Positions 3,012 through 15,108 of a DNA stretch of 64,000 nucleotides are shown here, in pieces. The stretch comes from Xenorhabdus ehlersii (lineage in GTDB: Bacteria; Pseudomonadota; Gammaproteobacteria; Enterobacterales; Enterobacteriaceae): NCBI RefSeq assembly GCF_003610465.1, contig NZ_RAQI01000003.1, positions 310,001-374,000 of the forward strand, written 5' to 3'. Position numbers and translations under genes: made by a program. How positions within the stretch are numbered: the stretch's first letter is position 1; every line of letters starts with the position of its first letter. The notes below the pieces were generated by a model. That model saw only the letters and a list, made by a program, of their open reading frames with translations, was not told the origin of the DNA and did not search any database.

Positions 3012-5936
3012 ATGACTGATGTAGCAACTATCTCATTAAAGGTTAACACCTCTGATCTTGAAAGGGGTGAGCAGAAATTAAACTCATTTAAAGAGGCCGC
3101 TGATAAGGTCAGTAATTCCACAAATAAGTTATCCAACGAGTCAGAAAAAAACGCTTCGGCCTCTGCTGCTATGGCGAAAGAGATTGACCGGATACACCGA
3201 AGTGTTTCGGAGTTAGCAGCTAAGGAGCGGCAAGCTGCGTCAGCTTCAAAAGTTCTTGCGGCGGAACAAGATAAAGTCGCTGAGGCGTTTTTCAAACAGA
3301 TTGATGCCATTAAACGTAATGCTACCTCGACAGAGCAGTTAACCAAGATTCAGGCGGAAGCCAGAAAAGCCAGACAGTCAGAGAAGCTAGACCTTGAATC
3401 CTATCGCAACATCCTTTCTGACATTATCGGCAAAAAGAAACAGATGGCAGAGGCTGATGCGAAACAGGCCGCAGCAGGTCAGGCGTTTCTGGCCAGACTG
3501 AAAGACCAAATTGCAACCCAAAATCTCAGCCGTAATGAATTACTGAGATACAGGGCGGCACAATTAGGCGTGAGTTCAGCGGCAGATATTTACATCAACA
3601 AGCTAAAAGAAACGGGTAAGGAAACCAAGAACTTAAACCGGAATAACAATTCGGTTATTGCTGGACTTAAAAATCTCTCCGATTCAATGGGTATGGGAAC
3701 ATTGTTACGTGGCGGGGGATGGGGCGCGGTAATTGCAGGAGTAGGTGGGGTTGCCAAAGCTTATTATCAGGCTTTAGAAGTACAGGAAAATTTTAATAGG
3801 GCTGTTATTGCCTCTGGGCGATTCGCAGGAATTACTCAGGGACAATTGATCGGTTATGCAGAGAATATCAGTAAAACGGGTGCAGGCGCAGAAGTTGCCG
3901 CCGAGGCGCTCATTAAGCTGATGAATGCAGGGCTTAAGCTCGACGTAGATATTAGTAAAGCAGGGCAATCTATTGTCGAGTTTTCTCGTTATTCTGGGCA
4001 GAGCGTTGATGAGTTGGTTTCACATTTCGCCCGATTATCTGATGATCCCTATGGTGGCTCTGTTGCCCTGAACAAGCAATATCGCTATCTCTCCGTGAAC
4101 GTACTCCAACATATTAAGGAATTAGAACTTCAAGGAAAAATAACGGAAGCCGTTACTTATGCCACGGATGCATTGAGCGGAGCGATGGCTGAACGTGCGA
4201 ATGAAATCCGAAATAGTATGGGTACATTGCCTAAGCTATTTGATGAGATTAAACGCGCTGCTAATTTTATGTGGGATTCGATTGCTGGATTAGGTGCTAA
4301 GCCATCTGATATAGAGCACAGAGCCAGATTGGTGTTAAAAATCGGCTCGGCAGAAAATGACCCTCGTCGCCATAATGGAAAAACGCCTAGTGTATCAAAT
4401 GAAATATTAAATCAGTGGAAGAAAGAACTGCGTGAACTGGATACTAAGGTAAGGAAAGAGAAGGAATCCGCAGAACTTCAAGAGCGCAGTATTACCAGCC
4501 AAATTAAGTTTAACCAGTTGGTTGATAAAGGGACGAGTTGGGCAGAAAAAAGAAAGCATGAACATAAAATGCTAAATAAATTGATACAAGAAAATATCCA
4601 ACTGGCGAAAGAAGGTAAGATCAAGCTATGGACGACAGAGGATATTGCGAAAGCTCGCGCCGGTATCGAACACGAATTTCGTGACCGTCGAGGACCTGGT
4701 TATGGGAAAAAACCGCCTAAAGAACCTAAATTTAAAGTTGATGCAGGGACTCGCTTAGATGAAGCGGCGCAAGCTCGTACACGAGCACTACAAGCTGAGT
4801 TAAAAGCCCTACAAGACGAAAGTAAATATGTTGGCATCGTCAGTCAACAGCGCCGGGAATTATTTAAAATACAGAGTCAATTAGCCATTCTTGAGGAAGT
4901 CAGAGACGGTGACAATAAGCGTAGGCTTAGTGATGATGAAAAAGCATTATTGTTGAAAAAAGAATCTATCCTTGCTGAAAAGCAGGAAGCTGCTGAAATT
5001 GGCGACCAGATTGAAAAGCAAAAACAACTTAACGGCTTAAGACTATCCAATGATGGATTGGAAGAAGAGTTAAGACTCCGTCGTGAAAGCATTGGTAAAA
5101 CTGAAGTTCAGATAGCCAAGCAGACTGAATTGCTCAAGCTGAAAAATGAGTGGTTAAAGAAGGGGGGGGCTGAAAGCGACTCTGAATATCTACGTGGAAT
5201 TGATCTGGTCGAACAAAAATATGCGGATGAGAAAGCTCTTCGTTCTAACTGGGAAGATGGATTTAAAAGAGGGTTCGAGAATTTTGAAAGGGAGGCATCA
5301 AATGCCTACGGCAATGTTGCACAAATCTCCCAAGCAGCCTTTGCGGGTATGAGCAACTCTCTGTCTGATTTTCTTCTCACTGGTAAGGCTAACTTTGGCG
5401 ATTTCACTAAGTCAATTCTTAGCATGATTACCAAAATGCTCATGCAAATGGCTATGTTGCAAGCCATGAAAGCGGCATTTGGTGGTACTTCATTTGGGGC
5501 TACGCTTGGATTTGCTGGTGGTGGTTACACTGGAGATGGTGGCAAATACGAGCCTAAAGGTGTAGTTCATGGTGGTGAGTTTGTATTTACCAAAGAGTCA
5601 ACTCAGCGTTTAGGTGTTGATAATTTGTATCGGCTGATGGATAGCGCCAAACGTGGATACGCTGCTGGTGGTCATGTTGGCGGCTCTCAACCAATGACAG
5701 TAAGTACTCCGACACCAAGAATGTACGGGATGCAACCTACGCCCGCTGGTGGAGTTCAGGTCAATCTTGGCGGCATTCATGTAGAAAACCAGCAACAGCA
5801 ATCTACCGCTTCAAATATCGATGCACGGGCAGCAGAGCTATCACTGACGAAGAAAATAAGGTCTGTGTTAGTTCAAGAAAGCCGTGATGGTGGTGATTTG
5901 TATAAAATCATTAGAGCGGTTAGTGGTAGACGGTAG
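3012..5936 (+). CDS. tail tape measure protein (lambda H analogue)
   Basis: A 974-residue protein, the largest of the tube module; its length sets tail length. The first 200 residues are lysine/glutamate/alanine-rich coiled coil. A glycine-rich hydrophobic segment follows (LLRGGGWGAVIAGVGGVAKA, about residues 233-252). Long charged helices run from about 470 to 730. The C-terminal 'NFGDFTKSILSMITKMLMQM' and 'GGYTGDGGKYEP' segments match the lambda-type tape measure C-terminal domain. It is preceded by AGGAAAGAG at 3001-3009. The gene is intact. Unlike in lambda, gene M does not follow it directly but lies 7.7 kb further on. Confidence 0.92.
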   Translation: MTDVATISLKVNTSDLERGEQKLNSFKEAADKVSNSTNKLSNESEKNASASAAMAKEIDRIHRSVSELAAKERQAASASKVLAAEQDKVAEAFFKQIDAIKRNATSTEQLTKIQAEARKARQSEKLDLESYRNILSDIIGKKKQMAEADAKQAAAGQAFLARLKDQIATQNLSRNELLRYRAAQLGVSSAADIYINKLKETGKETKNLNRNNNSVIAGLKNLSDSMGMGTLLRGGGWGAVIAGVGGVAKAYYQALEVQENFNRAVIASGRFAGITQGQLIGYAENISKTGAGAEVAAEALIKLMNAGLKLDVDISKAGQSIVEFSRYSGQSVDELVSHFARLSDDPYGGSVALNKQYRYLSVNVLQHIKELELQGKITEAVTYATDALSGAMAERANEIRNSMGTLPKLFDEIKRAANFMWDSIAGLGAKPSDIEHRARLVLKIGSAENDPRRHNGKTPSVSNEILNQWKKELRELDTKVRKEKESAELQERSITSQIKFNQLVDKGTSWAEKRKHEHKMLNKLIQENIQLAKEGKIKLWTTEDIAKARAGIEHEFRDRRGPGYGKKPPKEPKFKVDAGTRLDEAAQARTRALQAELKALQDESKYVGIVSQQRRELFKIQSQLAILEEVRDGDNKRRLSDDEKALLLKKESILAEKQEAAEIGDQIEKQKQLNGLRLSNDGLEEELRLRRESIGKTEVQIAKQTELLKLKNEWLKKGGAESDSEYLRGIDLVEQKYADEKALRSNWEDGFKRGFENFEREASNAYGNVAQISQAAFAGMSNSLSDFLLTGKANFGDFTKSILSMITKMLMQMAMLQAMKAAFGGTSFGATLGFAGGGYTGDGGKYEPKGVVHGGEFVFTKESTQRLGVDNLYRLMDSAKRGYAAGGHVGGSQPMTVSTPTPRMYGMQPTPAGGVQVNLGGIHVENQQQQSTASNIDARAAELSLTKKIRSVLVQESRDGGDLYKIIRAVSGRR

Positions 5937-8204: not shown

Positions 8205-8447
8205 ATGGGAGTGGTTATAGCAAGACTTGAAGCGTTTGTTGTAAATGTTATCCATGCTGACATGTGGATCGCTGAGTGTGATGAGCTTGGATTGGTTACA
8301 GAAGCTAAGACTTACGATGAGCTGACAGAGAAAGTTTGGGAAATTGCGCCTGAACTTTATGAGATTAATGGCCTAGGCGACCATTCTGAGGTTATCCGTA
8401 TTAAGTTTGTCCAAGAGCAATCATCTGATTCAAGGGTGGCTCTCTGA
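8205..8447 (+). CDS. HicB-like antitoxin with DUF1902 fold
   Basis: An 80-residue protein whose core 'WIAECDELGLVTEAKTYDEL' is the hallmark of DUF1902/HicB-like partial RNase H folds used as antitoxins. A strong ribosome site (AGAGGGGTAATAC) precedes the ATG. No separate DNA-binding domain is seen. The stop overlaps the toxin start (TGATG), so the two are translationally coupled with antitoxin first, the reverse of the classical hicA-hicB order but usual for DUF1902 pairs. Confidence 0.78.
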   Translation: MGVVIARLEAFVVNVIHADMWIAECDELGLVTEAKTYDELTEKVWEIAPELYEINGLGDHSEVIRIKFVQEQSSDSRVAL

Positions 8448-8644
8448 TGGGTTCTGGCTTATATCCGCAACTGAAAGAAATCTTATTAGCACACGGGTGT
8501 TACTTTGTCAGGCAAGGCAAAGGGAGCCATGAAATATGGCGTAGCGATATAACCAACAAAGTATTCAGTGTGCCATATACAATAGTCTCTAAACATACCG
8601 CCAATGCAATACTGAGACAGGCGGGTATTAAAGAAAAAATTTAA
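8447..8644 (+). CDS. hicA: HicA-type mRNA interferase toxin
   Basis: A 65-residue protein with the HicA double-stranded-RNA-binding-like fold. The catalytic motif is GKGSHEIW with His28, and the C-terminal 'VSKHTANAILRQAGI' is the usual HicA ending. It would cut mRNA on ribosomes when not held by the upstream antitoxin. Start and antitoxin stop overlap by one base. A terminator follows at 8673. Family recognition is strong; activity is inferred. Confidence 0.82.
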   Translation: MGSGLYPQLKEILLAHGCYFVRQGKGSHEIWRSDITNKVFSVPYTIVSKHTANAILRQAGIKEKI

Positions 8645-8672: not shown

Positions 8673-8693
8673 AGCCCCTTACGGGGCTTTTTT
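8673..8693 (+). terminator. terminator of the hicBA pair, overlapping the repressor 3' end
   Basis: AGCCCC (8673-8678), loop TTAC, GGGGCT (8683-8688), then TTTTT. The reverse-strand repressor gene ends inside this hairpin (stop at 8679-8681), so it separates two convergent units. Confidence 0.75.
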
Positions 8694-9452
8694 GTTGAGT
8701 AGTTGCTCAAGCATGGAGTGGATAGAACTTAATTTCTTATCCATCTCTTTAAGGTGTGAATCTTTCTTAGTGATATGAATCGGCAAGGAATCTCTTTTTG
8801 AATGGATATCGAATTGTGATTGTACTGCAATACCTAAAACTTCAAGGCTCTTTCTATTAAAGGGTATAACTTCATAGCTAGAATTTAAAGGTCTAAGAAA
8901 CCATTTACCCTGGTCGAAAAAGATCTGCCTAACCATAGAATCACCGTTAGTCATGGAAAAAGTAAAAACAAAGTCACCATTTTGAGCTGCGAGATTTCTG
9001 TCAAAAATAACCACAGTTCCTTCAGGAAAACTGAGTCCTGACTCGGATTCCATGGAATCTCCTGAGATTTTAACGGCAAAACAATCAGAACTCGCATTAG
9101 GAGGAGCCAAAACCGAACCATGACCAATGCCAGTAACAGACGCAGTAAAACCAATTGTTGAAAATACATCACTATAATATTCCATCACTGGAATCTCATG
9201 TGTTGTCACTGTCTTGCGAATGTTACCTAGATCAGGTTCATCACCAACTCCGATTGCTAACCATTCTCTACTTGTGCCAAGTGCCGCAGCTAAATTAGTT
9301 AGAACATTATCCCTTGGCTTTGAGTCTCCAGCTTCATAGGCAGCGATCTGTCTTCTGACAACACCAACTTTATCGGCTAATTCTCCTTGAGTTAGATTGG
9401 CTGCCTGTCTAGCCATTGAAATTCGTGTTTTAAAATTGTCATTAATTTTCAT
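8679..9452 (-). CDS. CI-type phage repressor, XRE helix-turn-helix plus S24-like domain lacking the catalytic Lys
   Basis: A 257-residue protein. Residues 8-65 are an XRE helix-turn-helix (TQGELADKVGVVRRQIAAYE). Residues 122-210 align with the C-terminal domain of lambda CI/P22 C2: 'FAVKISGDSM' with Ser133, 'FPEGTVVIFD', 'GDFVFTF' and 'FLRPLN'. The position of the catalytic lysine (CI K192, LexA K156) is Arg175 in MVRQI, and no Ala-Gly or Cys-Gly cleavage site is seen between the domains. It is therefore probably a dimerising repressor that cannot cleave itself and that is inactivated in another way. A 40-residue charged tail (218-257) is extra. It is divergent from the Arc-like gene and antirepressors, which it probably controls. 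Confidence 0.82.
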   Translation of the reverse strand: MKINDNFKTRISMARQAANLTQGELADKVGVVRRQIAAYEAGDSKPRDNVLTNLAAALGTSREWLAIGVGDEPDLGNIRKTVTTHEIPVMEYYSDVFSTIGFTASVTGIGHGSVLAPPNASSDCFAVKISGDSMESESGLSFPEGTVVIFDRNLAAQNGDFVFTFSMTNGDSMVRQIFFDQGKWFLRPLNSSYEVIPFNRKSLEVLGIAVQSQFDIHSKRDSLPIHITKKDSHLKEMDKKLSSIHSMLEQLLNKKAP

Positions 9453-9475
9453 ATGTGAAGTCCAAAAAATTCATA

Positions 9476-9527
9476 TTGACACATGATGGAATCATGAGCT
9501 ATAACTAATAGTACATTATGAGAATGT
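9476..9527 (+). promoter_or_regulatory. promoter and palindromic operators of the immunity locus
   Basis: TTGACA (9476-9481) and TATAAC (9500-9505) are separated by 18 bases. The spacer holds the perfect palindrome CATGATGGAATCATG (9482-9496), ideally placed for repressor binding. A second inverted repeat ACATT-ATGAG-AATGT lies at 9513-9527 just downstream. The region faces the Arc-like and antirepressor genes and lies between them and the divergent repressor gene. Boxes are read directly; the binding protein is inferred. Confidence 0.65.
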
Positions 9528-9556
9528 GTAGTTACAAATACTCACAGGAGATAAAA

Positions 9557-9727
9557 ATGCGAAAAGATATGAGACCCTCACCATACCCATTCAGAATGAA
9601 GCCGGAAATGCGCCAATGGCTAGAAGATAAAGCCGAAGAAAAGCGCCGCTCTGTACAGGTTCAATTGGAGTACATAGTAGATATCGTGATGGAAATGGAG
9701 AAAAAAGGTGAGTTACAACTTCCATAA
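9557..9727 (+). CDS. Arc/Mnt-like ribbon-helix-helix repressor
   Basis: A 56-residue protein from the ATG at 9557, which follows AGGAG at 9547-9551; a possible start at 9518 has no ribosome site. 'SPYPFRMKPEMRQWLEDKAE' is the beta-strand and first helix of an Arc-type ribbon-helix-helix, followed by 'RRSVQVQLEYIVDIVMEM'. In phage P22, Arc and Mnt control the antirepressor gene ant. Here the gene is the first of the rightward operon with two antirepressors behind it, so it probably limits antirepressor synthesis. Confidence 0.75.
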   Translation: MRKDMRPSPYPFRMKPEMRQWLEDKAEEKRRSVQVQLEYIVDIVMEMEKKGELQLP

Positions 9728-9734
9728 AGACGAA

Positions 9735-9765
9735 ACCCCAACGGCGGCAACCATCGGGGTCTCTA
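9735..9765 (+). promoter_or_regulatory. leader hairpin before the KilA-N antirepressor
   Basis: GAAACCCC (9732-9739) and GGGGTCTC (9756-9763) flank a 16-base GC-rich loop, followed by TAATTT. A very similar hairpin precedes the second antirepressor (10941-10972). It could be an attenuator or a target for antisense RNA control, as P22 uses for ant. Confidence 0.4.
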
Positions 9766-9821
9766 ATTTGTCAGTAACGCTCGAAGAAACCAACATGTCA
9801 ACCATAACAGAGAGTGACAAT

Positions 9822-10652
9822 ATGAATAATGTAGCAAATAAAAATCTTCCTGTCATTGCAGGCGTAGAAATCACTACCGATTCAGCAGGTCGTTTTAATC
9901 TGAATGCGCTTCATAAGGCAAGTGGTACTGGTTCAAATAAAGCCCCTGCGCAATGGTTAAGAACGCAGTCAGCTAAAGAATTGGTGTCAGAACTTGAATC
10001 TAACTTATTGAAAGGTAGTCACTGTGCAAATATGCACACTGGTCATAAAGTGCTCAATGCTGTTTTAGGTGGCACCAATCCCGGTACTTTCGCTCATGAG
10101 TTAATAGCCGTTTCATATGCTGGCTGGATCAACCCGTCATTCCAGTTGCAAGTCAACCAGACTTTCATTGATTACCGTTCTGGTAAGTTGGTTGAACGGG
10201 TTCATGTACAAATTCCCCAATCACTACCCGAAGCACTTCGTCTGGCGGCTGACTTAGCAGAACAGAAAGCCGCACTTGAGCACAAGGTGGAAAGCATGGA
10301 AAACCTGTTCAAAGAGGGCATGACCGCCACGCAGTTCTGTAAAATGCTTAACGGAGTGAATGTTCAAAAAGTAAACCATTTTCTCCATCTGCATAACTGG
10401 CTCTACAACGAAAGCAAATCAGGTAAAAATTTACGCTGGCGGGCAACATCCTACGCACGTGATCGCTACCTGACAGAAAAGCAAAATGAATTCAATCTTC
10501 ACGGTGAAGAGGCTTTCATTAAATTTCAGCCTGTTCTGCTACAAAAAGGCGCGCAAAAAATTTACCAGCATTATCTGGCAAATGAATTGCCGATGAAAAA
10601 GAACTGGGATGGGCTGCATACCCATGACAAATCCGTGAGCGTGGCGGCATAA
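9822..10652 (+). CDS. antirepressor with KilA-N domain
   Basis: A 276-residue protein. The ATG at 9822 follows AGAGAG; ATGs at 9795 and 9708 are possible, the latter overlapping the Arc-like gene and the leader hairpin. Residues about 9-120 are a KilA-N DNA-binding domain ('GRFNLNALHKASG', 'KAPAQWLRTQSAKELV', 'GTFAHELIAVSYAGWINPSF'). A helical linker (SLPEALRLAADLAEQKAALE) leads to a C-terminal domain with 'GMTATQFCKMLNGVNVQKVN' typical of phage antirepressor C-terminal domains. Such proteins bind and inactivate phage repressors. Which repressor is the target is not shown by the sequence. Confidence 0.78.
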   Translation: MNNVANKNLPVIAGVEITTDSAGRFNLNALHKASGTGSNKAPAQWLRTQSAKELVSELESNLLKGSHCANMHTGHKVLNAVLGGTNPGTFAHELIAVSYAGWINPSFQLQVNQTFIDYRSGKLVERVHVQIPQSLPEALRLAADLAEQKAALEHKVESMENLFKEGMTATQFCKMLNGVNVQKVNHFLHLHNWLYNESKSGKNLRWRATSYARDRYLTEKQNEFNLHGEEAFIKFQPVLLQKGAQKIYQHYLANELPMKKNWDGLHTHDKSVSVAA

Positions 10653-10823
10653 AAGCCATCGTTTTGATGAACGGGAGATTGCATGTAGTATTTCCAAACT
10701 TGCCAAAATGTTGAGTGTGAAAGTAGCTGCTTAACGGGGTTTGAGGCCATGGGCGGCGATCAAATACTGATCTATTTAGATTTATTGATCAATCTAACAG
10801 TGATAATCAGTATTAACAATAAA

Positions 10824-10850
10824 TATTTACACGTAATACGCGTGTAAATA
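10824..10850. promoter_or_regulatory. 27-bp inverted repeat before the second antirepressor gene
   Basis: TATTTACACG (10824-10833), seven bases, CGTGTAAATA (10841-10850): ten-base perfect arms. It lies in the 357-base gap 10653-11009, which has no gene. The size suggests an operator for a dimeric or tetrameric regulator. It differs from the operator at 9482, so a different protein probably binds. Confidence 0.5.
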
Positions 10851-10891
10851 GTTGAATATTCGAGGCGCTTCGCAATTCACAATGGATTGTC

Positions 10892-10920
10892 TTTACAAAA
10901 CGTTACAATCACGAGATAAA
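10892..10920 (+). promoter_or_regulatory. candidate promoter for the second antirepressor gene
   Basis: TTTACA (10892-10897) and GATAAA (10915-10920) with 17-base spacing, 42 bases downstream of the inverted repeat. Five of six and four of six bases match the sigma-70 consensus. Confidence 0.4.
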
Positions 10921-10940
10921 TAGAACGCGCTAAAACGGCG

Positions 10941-10975
10941 AAACCCCCGACTACTGGTAATAGTCAGGGGCTTCT
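10941..10975 (+). promoter_or_regulatory. leader hairpin before the P22-type antirepressor
   Basis: CCCC (10944-10947) plus GACTA (10949-10953) pair with TAGTC (10961-10965) plus GGGG (10967-10970), with one mismatch between them, followed by CTTCTTAT. It repeats the layout of the hairpin before the first antirepressor, including the preceding CGAAACCCC. Confidence 0.45.
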
Positions 10976-11009
10976 TATACAACATCTACAATCTTGCAGG
11001 AATATAGAC

Positions 11010-11777
11010 ATGTTAAGTATACCACTTAATGAACCAAGTAAAACTATCAACGTCCCATTTCATGGCACCGATCTATATGTCGTTAATTATAACGGTGAGC
11101 CGTATGTACCGATGAAGCCGATTGTCGATGGCATGGGACTAGCTTGGCAATCGCAGTTAGAGAAGATAAAACAAAGGTTTAAATCAACTGTAACGGAAAT
11201 CGTTATAGTTGCCGCAGATGGTAAAAAGAGGGAGATGATTTGCATTGCCCTCCGCAAACTTGCTGGCTGGTTAGCAACTATCAGCCCCAATAAAGTTAAA
11301 GCGTCGATCAGGGATAAAGTCATCCGGTATCAAGATGAGTGCGATGATGTTCTTTATGAATACTGGACTACGGGCGAGGTTAAGGCGAAGGGAACCACAA
11401 CCCAAGACCGTACCCCTCTTCGCGGACTGGTTAATACTCTGATGGGTAAATATGGAGTCAGTAATAAAAAGCTATTCCAGATGATTCATCATGAGTTCGG
11501 GGTAGGTCATATAAATGAGTTAACCAACGACCAGCTTCCCTCTGCGATAGAGTATCTGGCGACTAAAGCAATTGAGGGTGAGTTTTTGGGGAAAGAGGCG
11601 TTACCAATCCCTAATAGCTATTCTGGTTTTACTGGCAGGTTATTAATGGAACTGGAACGAGGGGAAGTGCTTTATTCTCAGGCGCTGACTCCTAAACATT
11701 ATGTTTCTACCATAAACGACTTTATGGAAATAGCTCAACGTGCTGGCTATATACCAATCGCCATTGAAGATGCTTGA
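11010..11777 (+). CDS. antirepressor of the P22 AR family
   Basis: A 255-residue protein. The first 120 residues ('VPFHGTDLYVVNYNGEPYVP', 'GMGLAWQSQLEKIK', 'CIALRKLAGWLATISPNKVK', 'YQDECDDVLYEYW') are the P22_AR_N domain of phage antirepressors; the rest fits its C-terminal partner. In P22 the antirepressor inactivates the C2 repressor and induces the prophage. The gene is complete, ending at TGA 11775-11777, only eight bases before the IS630 copy. A ribosome site GCAGGAATA precedes the ATG. Confidence 0.85.
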   Translation: MLSIPLNEPSKTINVPFHGTDLYVVNYNGEPYVPMKPIVDGMGLAWQSQLEKIKQRFKSTVTEIVIVAADGKKREMICIALRKLAGWLATISPNKVKASIRDKVIRYQDECDDVLYEYWTTGEVKAKGTTTQDRTPLRGLVNTLMGKYGVSNKKLFQMIHHEFGVGHINELTNDQLPSAIEYLATKAIEGEFLGKEALPIPNSYSGFTGRLLMELERGEVLYSQALTPKHYVSTINDFMEIAQRAGYIPIAIEDA

Positions 11778-11784
11778 TTTCTTA

Positions 11785-12852
11785 TCCAAATCAGATCATG
11801 CATGCAACCATGAAAATTCATCTGACACCAGAACAAAAACACGCCCTTGAATTGATGCATGATACTACTCGCGACAGTCGAGTCTGTGATCGCATTAAGG
11901 CGGTGCTTTTGGCCTCAGAAGGTTGGACTGCTCAGATGATTGCACAGGCCTTGCGTATTCATGAAAGTACGGTCAGCCGTCACCTGAAAGATTTTATCGC
12001 GCAGGAAAAGCTCACCCCAGAAAATGGCGGCTCTGAAAGCCATCTCTCTGCCGAACAAACCGCCGACCTGATTGATTATTTGACCGCCAATTTGATGCAT
12101 ACCACAACCCAAATTGTGGCCTATGTCCAAGCCCGTTGGCAGGTTTCTTTCAGCGTGGGCGGAATGACAAAATGGCTTCACCGCCAAGGTTTCAGCTATA
12201 AAAAACCCAAGGGTGTTCCTCATAAATTCGATGCGCACAAACAGCAACAATTTATTGATGACTACAAGGCGCTGAAAGAGGAAGCGGGGCAGAATGAACC
12301 GATCCTATTTATTGATGCGGTGCATCCTTCACAGTCCACAAAGCTCAGCTATGGCTGGATGAAAGCAGGAAAAAATCAGGTAAAAGGGATCGAAACCACC
12401 GGCAGTCGTACCCGTCTCAATATTCTGGGCGCCCTGAATTTACAACGGATTGAAGACACCGTGATCCGTGAATATCCGCGCATCAATGCCGAAAATATCG
12501 CCTATTTCTTCGGTGCGCTCCGAGAAACTTACCCGCTTTCGCAAAAAATCCACATCATTTTGGATGGAGCGGGTTACCATCGAGCCGAGTTGGTGAAAGA
12601 TATTGCGTATGTCCTGAATATTGAATTGCATTACCTCCCGCCTTACAGCCCAAACCTCAATCCGATAGAGCGATTGTGGAAGTATATGAATGAGCAAGTG
12701 CGTAACAATATCTATTTTCCGGATGCGAAGACCTTCCGTGAAACTCTTCGTCACTTTTTTCATGTCACTTTGCCAGAAAAAGCGAAAGAGCTCACGACTC
12801 GACTGACTGATAATTTTCAGATTTTAAAACCTGCATCTTCAAGTTAGATTGG
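11785..12852 (+). mobile_element. IS630-family insertion sequence
   Basis: A 1068-bp element bounded by TA dinucleotides (11783-11784 and 12853-12854), the target duplicated by IS630-family elements. The ends are imperfect inverted repeats: left TCCAAATCAGATCATGCATG and right (reversed) CCAATCTAACTTGAAGATGC share CCAA..TC and ATGCA blocks. It holds one transposase gene. Boundaries are my reading and could shift by a few bases. Confidence 0.65.
11810..12847 (+). CDS. IS630-family transposase
   Basis: A 345-residue protein from ATG 11810 (ATG 11798 is also possible; one at 11774 lies outside the element). The N-terminal half has a helix-turn-helix (WTAQMIAQALRIHESTVSRH) and a winged region. 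The C-terminal half is a DDE nuclease with Asp169 (ILFIDAVHP), Asp252 (IILDGAGYH) and Glu287 (PNLNPIERLW). It is full-length and uninterrupted, so the copy may be active. It sits between the second antirepressor and the RelBE-type pair without disrupting either. Confidence 0.93.
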   Translation: MKIHLTPEQKHALELMHDTTRDSRVCDRIKAVLLASEGWTAQMIAQALRIHESTVSRHLKDFIAQEKLTPENGGSESHLSAEQTADLIDYLTANLMHTTTQIVAYVQARWQVSFSVGGMTKWLHRQGFSYKKPKGVPHKFDAHKQQQFIDDYKALKEEAGQNEPILFIDAVHPSQSTKLSYGWMKAGKNQVKGIETTGSRTRLNILGALNLQRIEDTVIREYPRINAENIAYFFGALRETYPLSQKIHIILDGAGYHRAELVKDIAYVLNIELHYLPPYSPNLNPIERLWKYMNEQVRNNIYFPDAKTFRETLRHFFHVTLPEKAKELTTRLTDNFQILKPASSS

Positions 12853-12970: not shown

Positions 12971-13018
12971 TTGCGGAATAGATGCAATAATGTACAATGT
13001 AATACAAACGTAATTACA
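12971..13018 (+). promoter_or_regulatory. promoter and operator of the RelB/RelE-type pair
   Basis: TTGCGG (12971-12976) and TACAAT (12993-12998) with 16-base spacing, overlapped by an inverted repeat TGTAAT (12998-13003) and ATTACA (13013-13018). This is the usual layout for toxin-antitoxin autoregulation. The 180 bases between the insertion sequence and this site hold no other gene that I can support. Confidence 0.55.
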
Positions 13019-13030
13019 TATGGTGATGCT

Positions 13031-13285
13031 ATGAGCACAATTCAGATCAGAGTGGATGAAGAACTTAAAAAGAATGCATATCAGGCATTTGAAAAACTGA
13101 ATCTATCTCCTTCCGATGCCATGCGGCTCTTTCTACGCTATGTAGCAGAAAATGAGAAACTGCCGTTCACAGAAGTATCCGTGATGGTCTCGGAGCAAGA
13201 CGAAGATGAGGATATTCTTGATGTCGTGAGGGAGCGCTTAAAAAATCCCGCTAAACGCATCCGGGTAAATATCGATGAAATTTAA
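13031..13285 (+). CDS. RelB/DinJ-family antitoxin
   Basis: An 84-residue protein from ATG 13031. 'STIQIRVDEELKKNAYQAFE' is a ribbon-helix-helix DNA-binding domain and 'LSPSDAMRLFLRYVAENEKL' completes the RelB/DinJ pattern. The acidic C-terminal part (EQDEDEDILDVVRERLKNP) would wrap the toxin. The gene overlaps the toxin start by 11 bases. Upstream palindrome overlaps the promoter, fitting autorepression. Confidence 0.85.
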   Translation: MSTIQIRVDEELKKNAYQAFEKLNLSPSDAMRLFLRYVAENEKLPFTEVSVMVSEQDEDEDILDVVRERLKNPAKRIRVNIDEI

Positions 13286-13568
13286 CATTGAGTTTGACGA
13301 GCGTGCTTTAAAGGAATGGCATAAGCTGGATGATACCATCCGTGAGCAGTTTAAAAAGAAACTACGGAAGCTACAAGATAATCCTTATATCGAGTCAGCC
13401 AGATTATATGGTGATTTAGCTGGCTGTTTTAAAATAAAACTTCGCTCTTCTGGATTTCGTCTTGTCTATCAGGTGATAGATGAAGAGATTGTGATCTGGG
13501 TGATAGCGGTAGGCAAAAGAGAAGACTCGAAAGCCTATAAGATAGCCAGCGAACGAATTGCACGATAA
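13275..13568 (+). CDS. RelE/ParE-superfamily toxin
   Basis: A 97-residue basic protein with the RelE layout: 'FDERALKEWHKLDDTIREQF', 'ARLYGDLAGCFKIKLRSSGF' , 'RLVYQVIDEEIVIWVIAVGK' and 'SKAYKIASERI'. RelE proteins cut mRNA in the ribosomal A site. It overlaps its antitoxin and both read in the tail-gene direction. Two terminators follow, isolating the pair from gene M. Confidence 0.87.
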   Translation: MKFNIEFDERALKEWHKLDDTIREQFKKKLRKLQDNPYIESARLYGDLAGCFKIKLRSSGFRLVYQVIDEEIVIWVIAVGKREDSKAYKIASERIAR

Positions 13569-13654: not shown

Positions 13655-14002
13655 ATGGCTATTGAAGTATTTAAGTGGCGAACTCAAATACAGGATTCGC
13701 CCAGTGGTGAATTTAAGCACCGAATTAAATCGATTGAGTTTGGGGATGGTTACAAACAAGTTTCTGCTGATGGTATTAACCCAGAAAGTCAATCGTGGCC
13801 TTACTCTTATATCGGCGTGAAAGAAGAGGTAATGCCTATCTTTCAGTTTATCCGCAAGCATACTTTAAAATCATTCATTTGGACGCCACCGTTTGGTGAG
13901 AGGGGATTATATCGGGTCAAAGCGGACTCAATAACCATGATTCCAATGGCGGGCGGTGTTATGAAAATATCAGCAATATTCGAACAGGCATTCAGCGCAT
14001 GA
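13655..14002 (+). CDS. minor tail protein (lambda M analogue)
   Basis: A 115-residue protein with the phage minor tail family pattern: 'FKHRIKSIEFGDGYKQVSAD' near residues 20-39, then 'SFIWTPPFGERGLYRVKADS' and 'ISAIFEQAF' at the end. Gene M acts at the tail tip after the tape measure complex forms. In lambda it follows H directly; here the 7.7-kb accessory block lies between. The stop overlaps the next start by four bases. Confidence 0.85.
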   Translation: MAIEVFKWRTQIQDSPSGEFKHRIKSIEFGDGYKQVSADGINPESQSWPYSYIGVKEEVMPIFQFIRKHTLKSFIWTPPFGERGLYRVKADSITMIPMAGGVMKISAIFEQAFSA

Positions 14003-14799: not shown

Positions 14800-15108
14800 A
14801 TGAAATATCGTCTACTTTTTGTTGTCACTGCGCTGTTGTTTTTATCCTCATATGCGGTTGCTCAGGATGGGTATTGGTATGAGGGGTGCCCGAAGTACTC
14901 AACGAAAGGATTAAGTGAATTAATCCAAAGAACAAAAACTACACCCATTGAGTCTATTGGTGAATTGCAGCAGTACAGCAAGGGTGAAGTAGAAGTAAAT
15001 ATAGAAAAAATAAAGTGTGATTTGCGTAATCTGGCAGAACATAGGCAGAAATTAAAAGATAAACTGAAAGAAATAGAAGAATTAGAAAAGTCTCAAATCC
15101 ACTCGTAA
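14800..15108 (+). CDS. small secreted protein with coiled coil, prophage accessory gene
   Basis: A 102-residue protein with a clear signal peptide (KYRLLFVVTALLFLSSYAVA, cleavage after AVA near residue 21). The mature 80 residues contain Cys29 and Cys72, which may form a disulphide, and a C-terminal charged coiled coil (HRQKLKDKLKEIEELEKSQI). It lies between L and K, which are adjacent in lambda, and has its own terminator at 15131. It is therefore an inserted gene, probably expressed in the lysogen. It acts in the periplasm; function unknown. Confidence 0.65.
   Translation: MKYRLLFVVTALLFLSSYAVAQDGYWYEGCPKYSTKGLSELIQRTKTTPIESIGELQQYSKGEVEVNIEKIKCDLRNLAEHRQKLKDKLKEIEELEKSQIHS

Follow-up and report, generated by a model that had tools for sequence, protein, structure and literature searches.

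The window analyzed here, a stretch of 64,000 nucleotides from Xenorhabdus ehlersii (NCBI RefSeq assembly GCF_003610465.1, contig NZ_RAQI01000003.1, positions 310,001 to 374,000 of the forward strand), carries a block of regulatory genes at 8679-11777 within the tail operon of a lambda-like prophage. We consider it likely, with a probability of roughly 0.7, that this block is a secondary immunity cassette ("ant moron") of the type known as immI in phage P22, that it represents a distinct subtype, and that it works as proposed below. An earlier note, made from the sequence alone, had described a P22 immI-like second immunity locus, in which an S24-type repressor, a divergent Arc-like gene, and two antirepressor-type genes lie between the tape measure gene and gene M. 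Pfam and PHROG matches agree with these gene assignments, and the likeness to immI is borne out by the gene order and polarity of P22, the site in a late operon, an antisense RNA of the sar type, and a separate main immunity region in a nearly related record.

In the proposed mechanism, the CI-like repressor (rep), transcribed leftward, would hold the rightward arc-ant promoter shut in the lysogen. The SOS response would not open rep, in which the CI-like fold appears to be kept and the cleavage site (here also the catalytic Lys) lost. When phage DNA enters a rep-free cell, or when rep is lost or inactivated, the arc-ant operon would fire, and two antirepressors of different families would be made that bind and inactivate the CI-type repressors of resident or competing prophages. 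The Arc-like protein would damp this burst, as would two antisense RNAs, sar1 and sar2, each pairing with the leader of one antirepressor gene.

Gene organization of the cassette

The counterpart of P22 Mnt is rep (8679-9452, minus strand), a CI/S24-type repressor of 257 amino acids with the Pfam domains HTH_3 and Peptidase_S24 (E values of 3.9e-12 and 4e-16). Next to it lies a predicted arc-ant promoter (9476-9505, plus strand; TTGACA-18-TATAAC), scored at 13.0 on an identical locus (L011), the spacer of which contains a perfect inverted repeat, CATGAT-GGA-ATCATG (9482-9496), as a candidate operator. From its motifs, 9476-9505 is a likely promoter.

The arc open reading frame (ORF) occupies 9518-9727 on the plus strand, and its start is most likely at 9557, preceded by aggag, giving a ribbon-helix-helix (RHH) protein of 56 amino acids (9557-9727). 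This protein matches phrog_10182 and, weakly, phrog_228 ("Arc-like repressor"), and no Pfam match was found for it. A family profile built without P22 Arc recovered Arc, AmrZ, and Mnt structures (best E value 4.9e-5; Mnt 0.027), and phrog_10182 was matched by 46 of the 48 rows of the RHH alignment A6, which comprises the window, 46 virus loci, and P22 Arc (L046 was excluded). This PHROG family, which has no named function, appears to be the Arc-like protein of the cassette. As in P22 immI, a divergent small RHH (Arc) gene opens the ant operon, an assignment that holds at the family level.

For the first antirepressor-type gene, ant1 (ORF 9708-10652, plus strand), a start at 9822 (276 amino acids) or 9795 (285 amino acids) is preferred over 9708; the protein combines KilA-N and ANT (KilAC) domains by Pfam and matches PHROG "anti-repressor Ant". 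The second, ant2 (11010-11777, plus strand; 255 amino acids), carries P22_AR_N (Pfam E value 3e-45) and matches phrog_524, "anti-repressor Ant" (E value 1.8e-72). Judged by these families, both would act as antirepressors, and their expression could, as the earlier note suggested, induce this prophage or resident relatives. Compared with the locus of X. griffiniae (L002), rep is identical at 239 of 257 positions and the Arc-like protein at 53 of 56, whereas other sequence takes the place of the ant1 C-terminal part and of the ant2 end, the identity of ant1 per 30 residues dropping from 0.97 to 0.13. A blastn match to L002 resumes at 10690, and the resulting segment (10690-10734, plus strand), similar to the 3' end of X. 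griffiniae ant1, is probably a remnant of the ant1 C-terminal swap. Such exchange of C-termini would fit a changing target range. The same X. griffiniae genome holds another RHH/antirepressor/P22_AR locus with two sar-type matches (L008, contig C234).

Distribution of the cassette in Enterobacterales

A protein search with rep returned 92 relatives, and the organisms named among them belong to the Enterobacterales (such as Xenorhabdus, Proteus, Providencia, Morganella, Yersinia, Pantoea, Erwinia, Klebsiella, Cronobacter, and Escherichia coli). Alignment of the repressor family kept 80 of 90 confirmed IMG/VR loci, which group into 48 clusters when 90% identity over 1,200 nt is required. In each of the 80, the repressor is followed by a small divergent ORF, and 73 also have two further ORFs of at least 150 amino acids. 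The combination had seemed unusual in the earlier note; with 80 virus loci in 48 clusters, the cassette is instead widespread. Of 46 loci, 23 contain a match to a regular expression describing an arc-ant promoter of the TTGAC type. Within family-level genomes, 31 of 295 had a match at an E value of 1e-15, mostly distant S24 repressors.

The first antirepressor slot is occupied by Bro-N in 31 of 46 loci and otherwise by P22_AR, KilA-N, ORF6N, or pRha, and the second slot by phrog_1726 ("anti-repressor") in 30 of 41 (alignment A5 holds 41 of 42 rows, as the gene of L060 is cut at the locus end). Single rows of the second slot resemble a transposase, baseplate J, or a zinc-ribbon protein; therefore, some second ORFs are not antirepressors. 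According to gene maps based on homology labels and ORF sizes, which are uncurated, the cassette occupies different positions: ahead of the tape measure gene, in the gap from tape measure to M or that from K to I, behind J, or, in P22-like phages, ahead of the tailspike gene. The last of these is the immI site of P22 itself and is confirmed by annotated neighbours in the E. coli HS prophage and phage JEP4. Flanking ORFs of at least 100 amino acids in the 48 representatives run mostly in the direction of the ant genes (left, 356 of 393; right, 157 of 183). In four loci (L015, L029, L065, and L072), a second antirepressor-type gene, a Mnt-like gene, and a sar match stand alongside the S24 cassette.

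Antisense RNAs at the antirepressor leaders

In P22 immI, the antisense RNA sar blocks translation of ant. The window likewise has a sar match between arc and ant, at a score under the curated cut-off: sar1 (9794-9728, minus strand) matches the Rfam sar family (RF00262) at 38.9 bits, with an E value of 1.3e-5 in a 3.2-kb search, and covers the interval that separates the arc stop from an ATG at 9795. In P22 (NC_002371), sar occupies 15090-15021, the arc stop ends at 15022, the ant ATG lies at 15091, and the RNA scores 97.8 bits against the Rfam model. The sar1 hairpin has a folding energy of -23.6 kcal and a z score of -4.2 on the antisense strand (-0.9 on the other strand), and it scores 62.8 bits against our model R1, the training set of which includes the window. 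The predicted second RNA, sar2 (about 10937-11006, minus strand), lies three bases before the ant2 ATG; its antisense strand folds into a hairpin of -25.3 kcal (z -6.2), against -15 kcal (z -2.4) for the other strand. This site is not in R1; sar2 matches the model at 31.9 bits (E value 0.001), and its X. griffiniae equivalent at 55.1 bits.

Among the cluster representatives, an antisense-strand hairpin of -15 kcal or lower occurs at the arc stop in 46 of 48, compared with 56 of 613 other gene ends (L046 missed the count owing to a repressor start that had been placed too far upstream), and a second such hairpin lies between the two further genes in 32 of 42. The sar1 alignment (47 rows: the window, P22 sar, and 45 loci) has 10 base pairs, 8 of them with changes on both sides, and the sar2 alignment (29 rows) has 9, with 7 changed on both sides; three unlike rows (L048, L052, and L087) had been removed from the 32 sar2 candidates before this alignment (A3) and the corresponding model, R2, were built. 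G-U pairs far exceed A-C mismatches (58 to 3 for sar1 and 32 to 1 for sar2), which points to conservation of the helix on the antisense strand. At site 1, the mean fold energy is -20.5 kcal on the antisense strand versus -15.2 kcal on the other.

Promoter-like sites precede both hairpins, with a median score of 9.6 before sar1 in 46 representatives, compared with 4.9 in 515 control windows (p = 5e-26), and of 10.1 before sar2 (n = 32; p = 7e-16). The sar1 site falls at +67 to +78 from the hairpin in 39 of the 46; the best-scoring site of the window, at +61, is among the other 7 and would start the RNA near 9785, and an extended -10 noticed by eye at 9806-9801 would start it at 9794.

On the 80 loci, which served as a consistency check in that most of them or their close copies had built the models, R1 gave a match in 77 at a distance of 200-420 nt upstream from where the repressor had been called to start (78 with L046, when its repressor start is taken from the homology match), and R2 gave one at the called ant2 start in 59. 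In L030 and L031, R1 matched only before the second gene and R2 before the third. Nine remaining R1 matches each coincide with the beginning of a different antirepressor-type gene. Matches 74 to 88% identical to the nearest training row were found for the second RNA of X. griffiniae, L008 (47.1 and 40.1 bits), L096 (43.5 bits), L092, L093, and phage CUS-3, and matches near training copies (92 to 100%) for L094, L095, JEP4, and HS, and R1 matched none of the 14 short loci (L097-L110) that surround S24 repressors of more remote kinship. From position and structure, sar1 and sar2 would act as antisense RNAs on the ant leaders; neither RNA figures in the earlier note.

Repressor active site and SOS response

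SOS-cleavable repressors combine an Ala-Gly or Cys-Gly site with a Ser/Lys dyad. The rep of the window departs from this pattern, with Asp-Val in place of the Ala-Gly site and Arg at the position of lambda K192; the Ser is kept, and its linker contains no [AC]G pair. At the aligned lambda site, an [AC]G pair is absent from all 48 cassette repressors (0/48), of which 32 keep the Ser and 34 the Lys. In contrast, the other S24 repressors of the same records keep the cleavage pair, Ser, and Lys in 26 of 26 aligned cases and in 5 of 5 more read by eye (Ala-Gly in L140, L142, and L154-L156), so that the pair is present in a total of 31 of 31, spanning all 29 records of at least 38 kb that have a second S24 match. 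We took these proteins as main repressors in that each is the record's other S24 protein, rather than by an adjoining cro gene. The underlying PF00717 search covered the records of 44 of the 48 clusters (L038, L059, L082, and L085 were left out) and was limited to the top 30 places by score, a selection biased toward intact S24 domains. Among these, L145 and L149 are cassette proteins, and for L140 and L142 phmmer yielded no ORF; G310 and G334 each have a short third S24 match that stands outside the tally.

The cassette repressors thus seem, from their active-site residues, to have lost self-cleavage, and the Mnt-like rep of the window should ignore SOS. Since rep looks uncleavable, expression of the antirepressors in response to SOS is improbable. 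A role of rep as an SOS sensor was considered and dropped after this tally. No exact LexA box (CTGTN8ACAG) occurs in the window, L004, or L005, the search being confined to the exact form and not looser boxes. Co-evolution between the C-domains of cassette repressors and the other S24 repressors was not detected in 26 pairs (mean identity 0.253 versus 0.250 for mismatched pairs, permutation p = 0.66).

Main immunity region of the prophage

The nearest record, G001 (IMGVR_UViG_2772190835_000008; 51,617 bases), is 100% identical to the window over 1-24957, and a main immunity region was found in it. Its left half carries an integrase, recombination genes, and an N-like gene (Pfam N_peptide), followed in lambda order by an immunity region with a 137-amino-acid helix-turn-helix repressor divergent from a 69-amino-acid Cro-like gene, and by O-, P-, and Q-like genes. 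Over residues 1-81, this repressor shares 54% identity with the phage L and ST64T prophage repressors. No S24 domain was found in it, and the single S24 match of G001 is that of the cassette; in records of at least 38 kb, 29 of 33 have a second S24 match, and the prophage of the window is among the four without. Given this separate region, it is well supported that the window cassette is the second immunity locus of its prophage. Neither repressor of this prophage looks cleavable.

Two further features of G001 were observed. Just before the O-like gene, in the place of the oop RNA, R1 matches at 38 bits (L004:10226-10298, minus strand), and P22 oop itself gives a weak match (25.8 bits, E value 0.02); the two kinds of RNA, oop and sar, may have a type of terminator in common. 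Between the lysis and packaging genes (L004:17099-19012) lies a KilA-N-type gene broken by transposase-like ORFs.

Comparison with known systems

The cassette shares with P22 immI (mnt-arc-sar-ant, Lederbergvirus; NC_002371) the order and polarity mnt(-)/arc(+)/sar(-)/ant(+) and the place in a late operon, apart from the main c2/cro region. In contrast, Mnt is an RHH protein, whereas the maintenance repressor of the window is of the CI/S24 type, so that the cassette is not immI in the strict sense; P22 has one ant and one sar, whereas the window has two antirepressor-type genes and two antisense RNAs; and the S24 cassette occurs also, at several places, in siphophage-type tail operons. It is therefore a relative of immI and a distinct subtype, differing in the maintenance repressor and the doubled sar-ant unit. 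The listings of open-access papers that we searched yielded no description of an S24-repressor immI or of paired sar RNAs.

In the excerpted text of Villafane et al. 2008 (PMC2629481), the P22 region is named the "ant moron", the CUS-3 and HS-1 types lack arc but have putative antirepressor genes, and control in HS-1 and CUS-3 must differ from that in P22. The P22-like prophage of E. coli HS, most likely the HS-1 of that study, has the S24 subtype with a 57-amino-acid arc-like gene annotated as hypothetical and both RNAs, and the S24-type cassette probably explains how its ant moron is controlled. Both this prophage and the P22-like phage JEP4 have the S24 repressor, small RHH gene, sar1, ant1, sar2, and ant2 at the P22 16/9 site. 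They differ from the window in that ant1 and ant2 come from other antirepressor families and an additional Mnt/Arc-type gene precedes the tailspike gene; in HS, ant2 is also marked incomplete and adjoins IS3. The ant moron of CUS-3 has an antirepressor with a sar-like RNA (R1, 47.7 bits), but two mnt genes and no annotated S24 repressor, and on this annotation CUS-3 was rejected as an example of the S24 subtype.

The Gifsy systems, in which we know of no arc or sar, resemble the prophage of the window in other respects. As excerpted from Lemire et al. 2011 (PMC3121763), they combine uncleavable repressors with LexA-controlled antirepressors; the short main repressor without an S24 domain (GfoR/GtgR) and the antirepressor outside the immunity region are as in the present prophage. 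Their antirepressors, however, are small and LexA controlled, whereas the window contains no exact CTGTN8ACAG.

Alternative explanations

Several observations weigh against the immI-type cassette as proposed. (i) The window palindrome CATGAT-N3-ATCATG is not shared with the 11 relatives compared, and a conserved operator palindrome was rejected on this account. (ii) Both Ser and Lys are retained in 28 of the 48 cassette repressors, and [AC]G occurs elsewhere in the linker in 16 of 48 (the window copy not among them); therefore, we infer rather than observe the loss of cleavage. (iii) The score of sar1 falls below the Rfam gathering cut-off of 43 bits, which only 2 of 10 sampled relatives pass (L032, 64.2 bits; L053, 44.2 bits), and sar2 (11006-10937, minus strand) reaches only 20.2 bits (E value 1.1) against Rfam sar. 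(iv) The RNA alignments contain only rows chosen because their antisense strand forms a stable hairpin (46 of 48; 29 of 42), a bias toward that strand; the mean fold energies for site 2 are close, at only -15.7 kcal on the antisense strand versus -14.1 kcal on the other. (v) The conservation of the promoter-like sites is partly due to homology of the ant coding sequence. (vi) The best-supported ant1 start in the window and X. griffiniae lies about 28 nt past sar1, and so the ant1 ribosome site may escape cover by sar1, unlike in P22.

A related but doubtful idea is that lock and key are of one kind, the CI-like rep being openable by a foreign or its own antirepressor, which would give a contagious, SOS-independent relay of induction. 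As rep and the S24-less main repressor both look deaf to DNA damage, antirepressors from co-resident or superinfecting phages would then be the natural trigger. In P22, the lock (Mnt) and the repressors targeted by Ant are not related, whereas the lock of the window cassette is itself a CI-like S24 pseudo-protease.

It is unlikely that the cassette instead tunes late or tail genes or excludes superinfecting phages, with the Ant proteins as DNA-binding regulators. In favour of such a role, DNA binding is also ascribed to the KilA-N and Bro-N domains. The P22 ant moron may likewise influence tailspike levels (PMC2629481, in excerpt), and deletion of P22 immI lowers the frequency of lysogeny (PMC11016777, in excerpt). 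However, the PHROG families matched by ant1 and ant2 are mostly annotated as anti-repressor, and the insertion site in the operon varies among phages, which argues against the tuning of one downstream gene.

That the antisense hairpins are mere terminators of stray leftward transcription, with proteins alone controlling the antirepressors, would agree with their shape, as both resemble intrinsic terminators. We regard this as quite unlikely in view of the promoter-like sites upstream of both, the Rfam sar homology and P22 geometry, and the fact that P22 sar is a known RNA, detected by RNA-seq (PMC13397905, in excerpt).

An SOS-triggered module, in which RecA-promoted cleavage of rep would release antirepressors that open the S24-less main repressor (Gifsy-like, with rep replacing LexA), is improbable. 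The S24 domain of rep, its absence from the main repressor, and the action of the LexA-controlled Gifsy antirepressors on uncleavable repressors (PMC3121763) are in its favour, but none of the 48 cassette repressors has the cleavage pair at the lambda site, and the window copy has Arg for Lys and a linker without [AC]G. Finally, the block as the only immunity region of a rearranged prophage is refuted for G001 by its repressor and Cro-, N-, O-, P-, and Q-like genes in lambda order.

Flanking genes

The cassette lies between the tape measure gene (3012-5936, assigned by size and position) and gene M (13655-14002; phrog_14, minor tail protein), as the earlier note had placed it, but it is not the sole content of this gap. 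An HicBA toxin-antitoxin pair (8205-8644) and other morons lie between the tape measure gene and rep, and IS630 (11774-12847) and a RelBE-like toxin-antitoxin pair (12971-13568) between ant2 and gene M, so that toxin-antitoxin pairs stand on both sides of the cassette. IS630 begins at the ant2 stop and may have trimmed the end of ant2. An AT-rich hairpin (10824-10850; z -3.75) is present in the gap between ant1 and ant2.

Implications

The role of Ant has been described as incompletely understood (Lemire et al. 2011, PMC3121763, in excerpt). Our analysis indicates that P22 immI, studied for decades, is one form of a widespread late-operon cassette in Enterobacterales prophages, in which each antirepressor gene is guarded by an antisense RNA and the maintenance repressor has lost a self-cleavage site that the phage's other S24 repressor retains. 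It offers a likely answer to the control of the E. coli HS-type ant moron and, through the genes of JEP4, a sequenced phage, brings SOS-independent cross-talk between prophages within reach of tests in E. coli. The cassette may let phages unlock each other without a DNA-damage signal.

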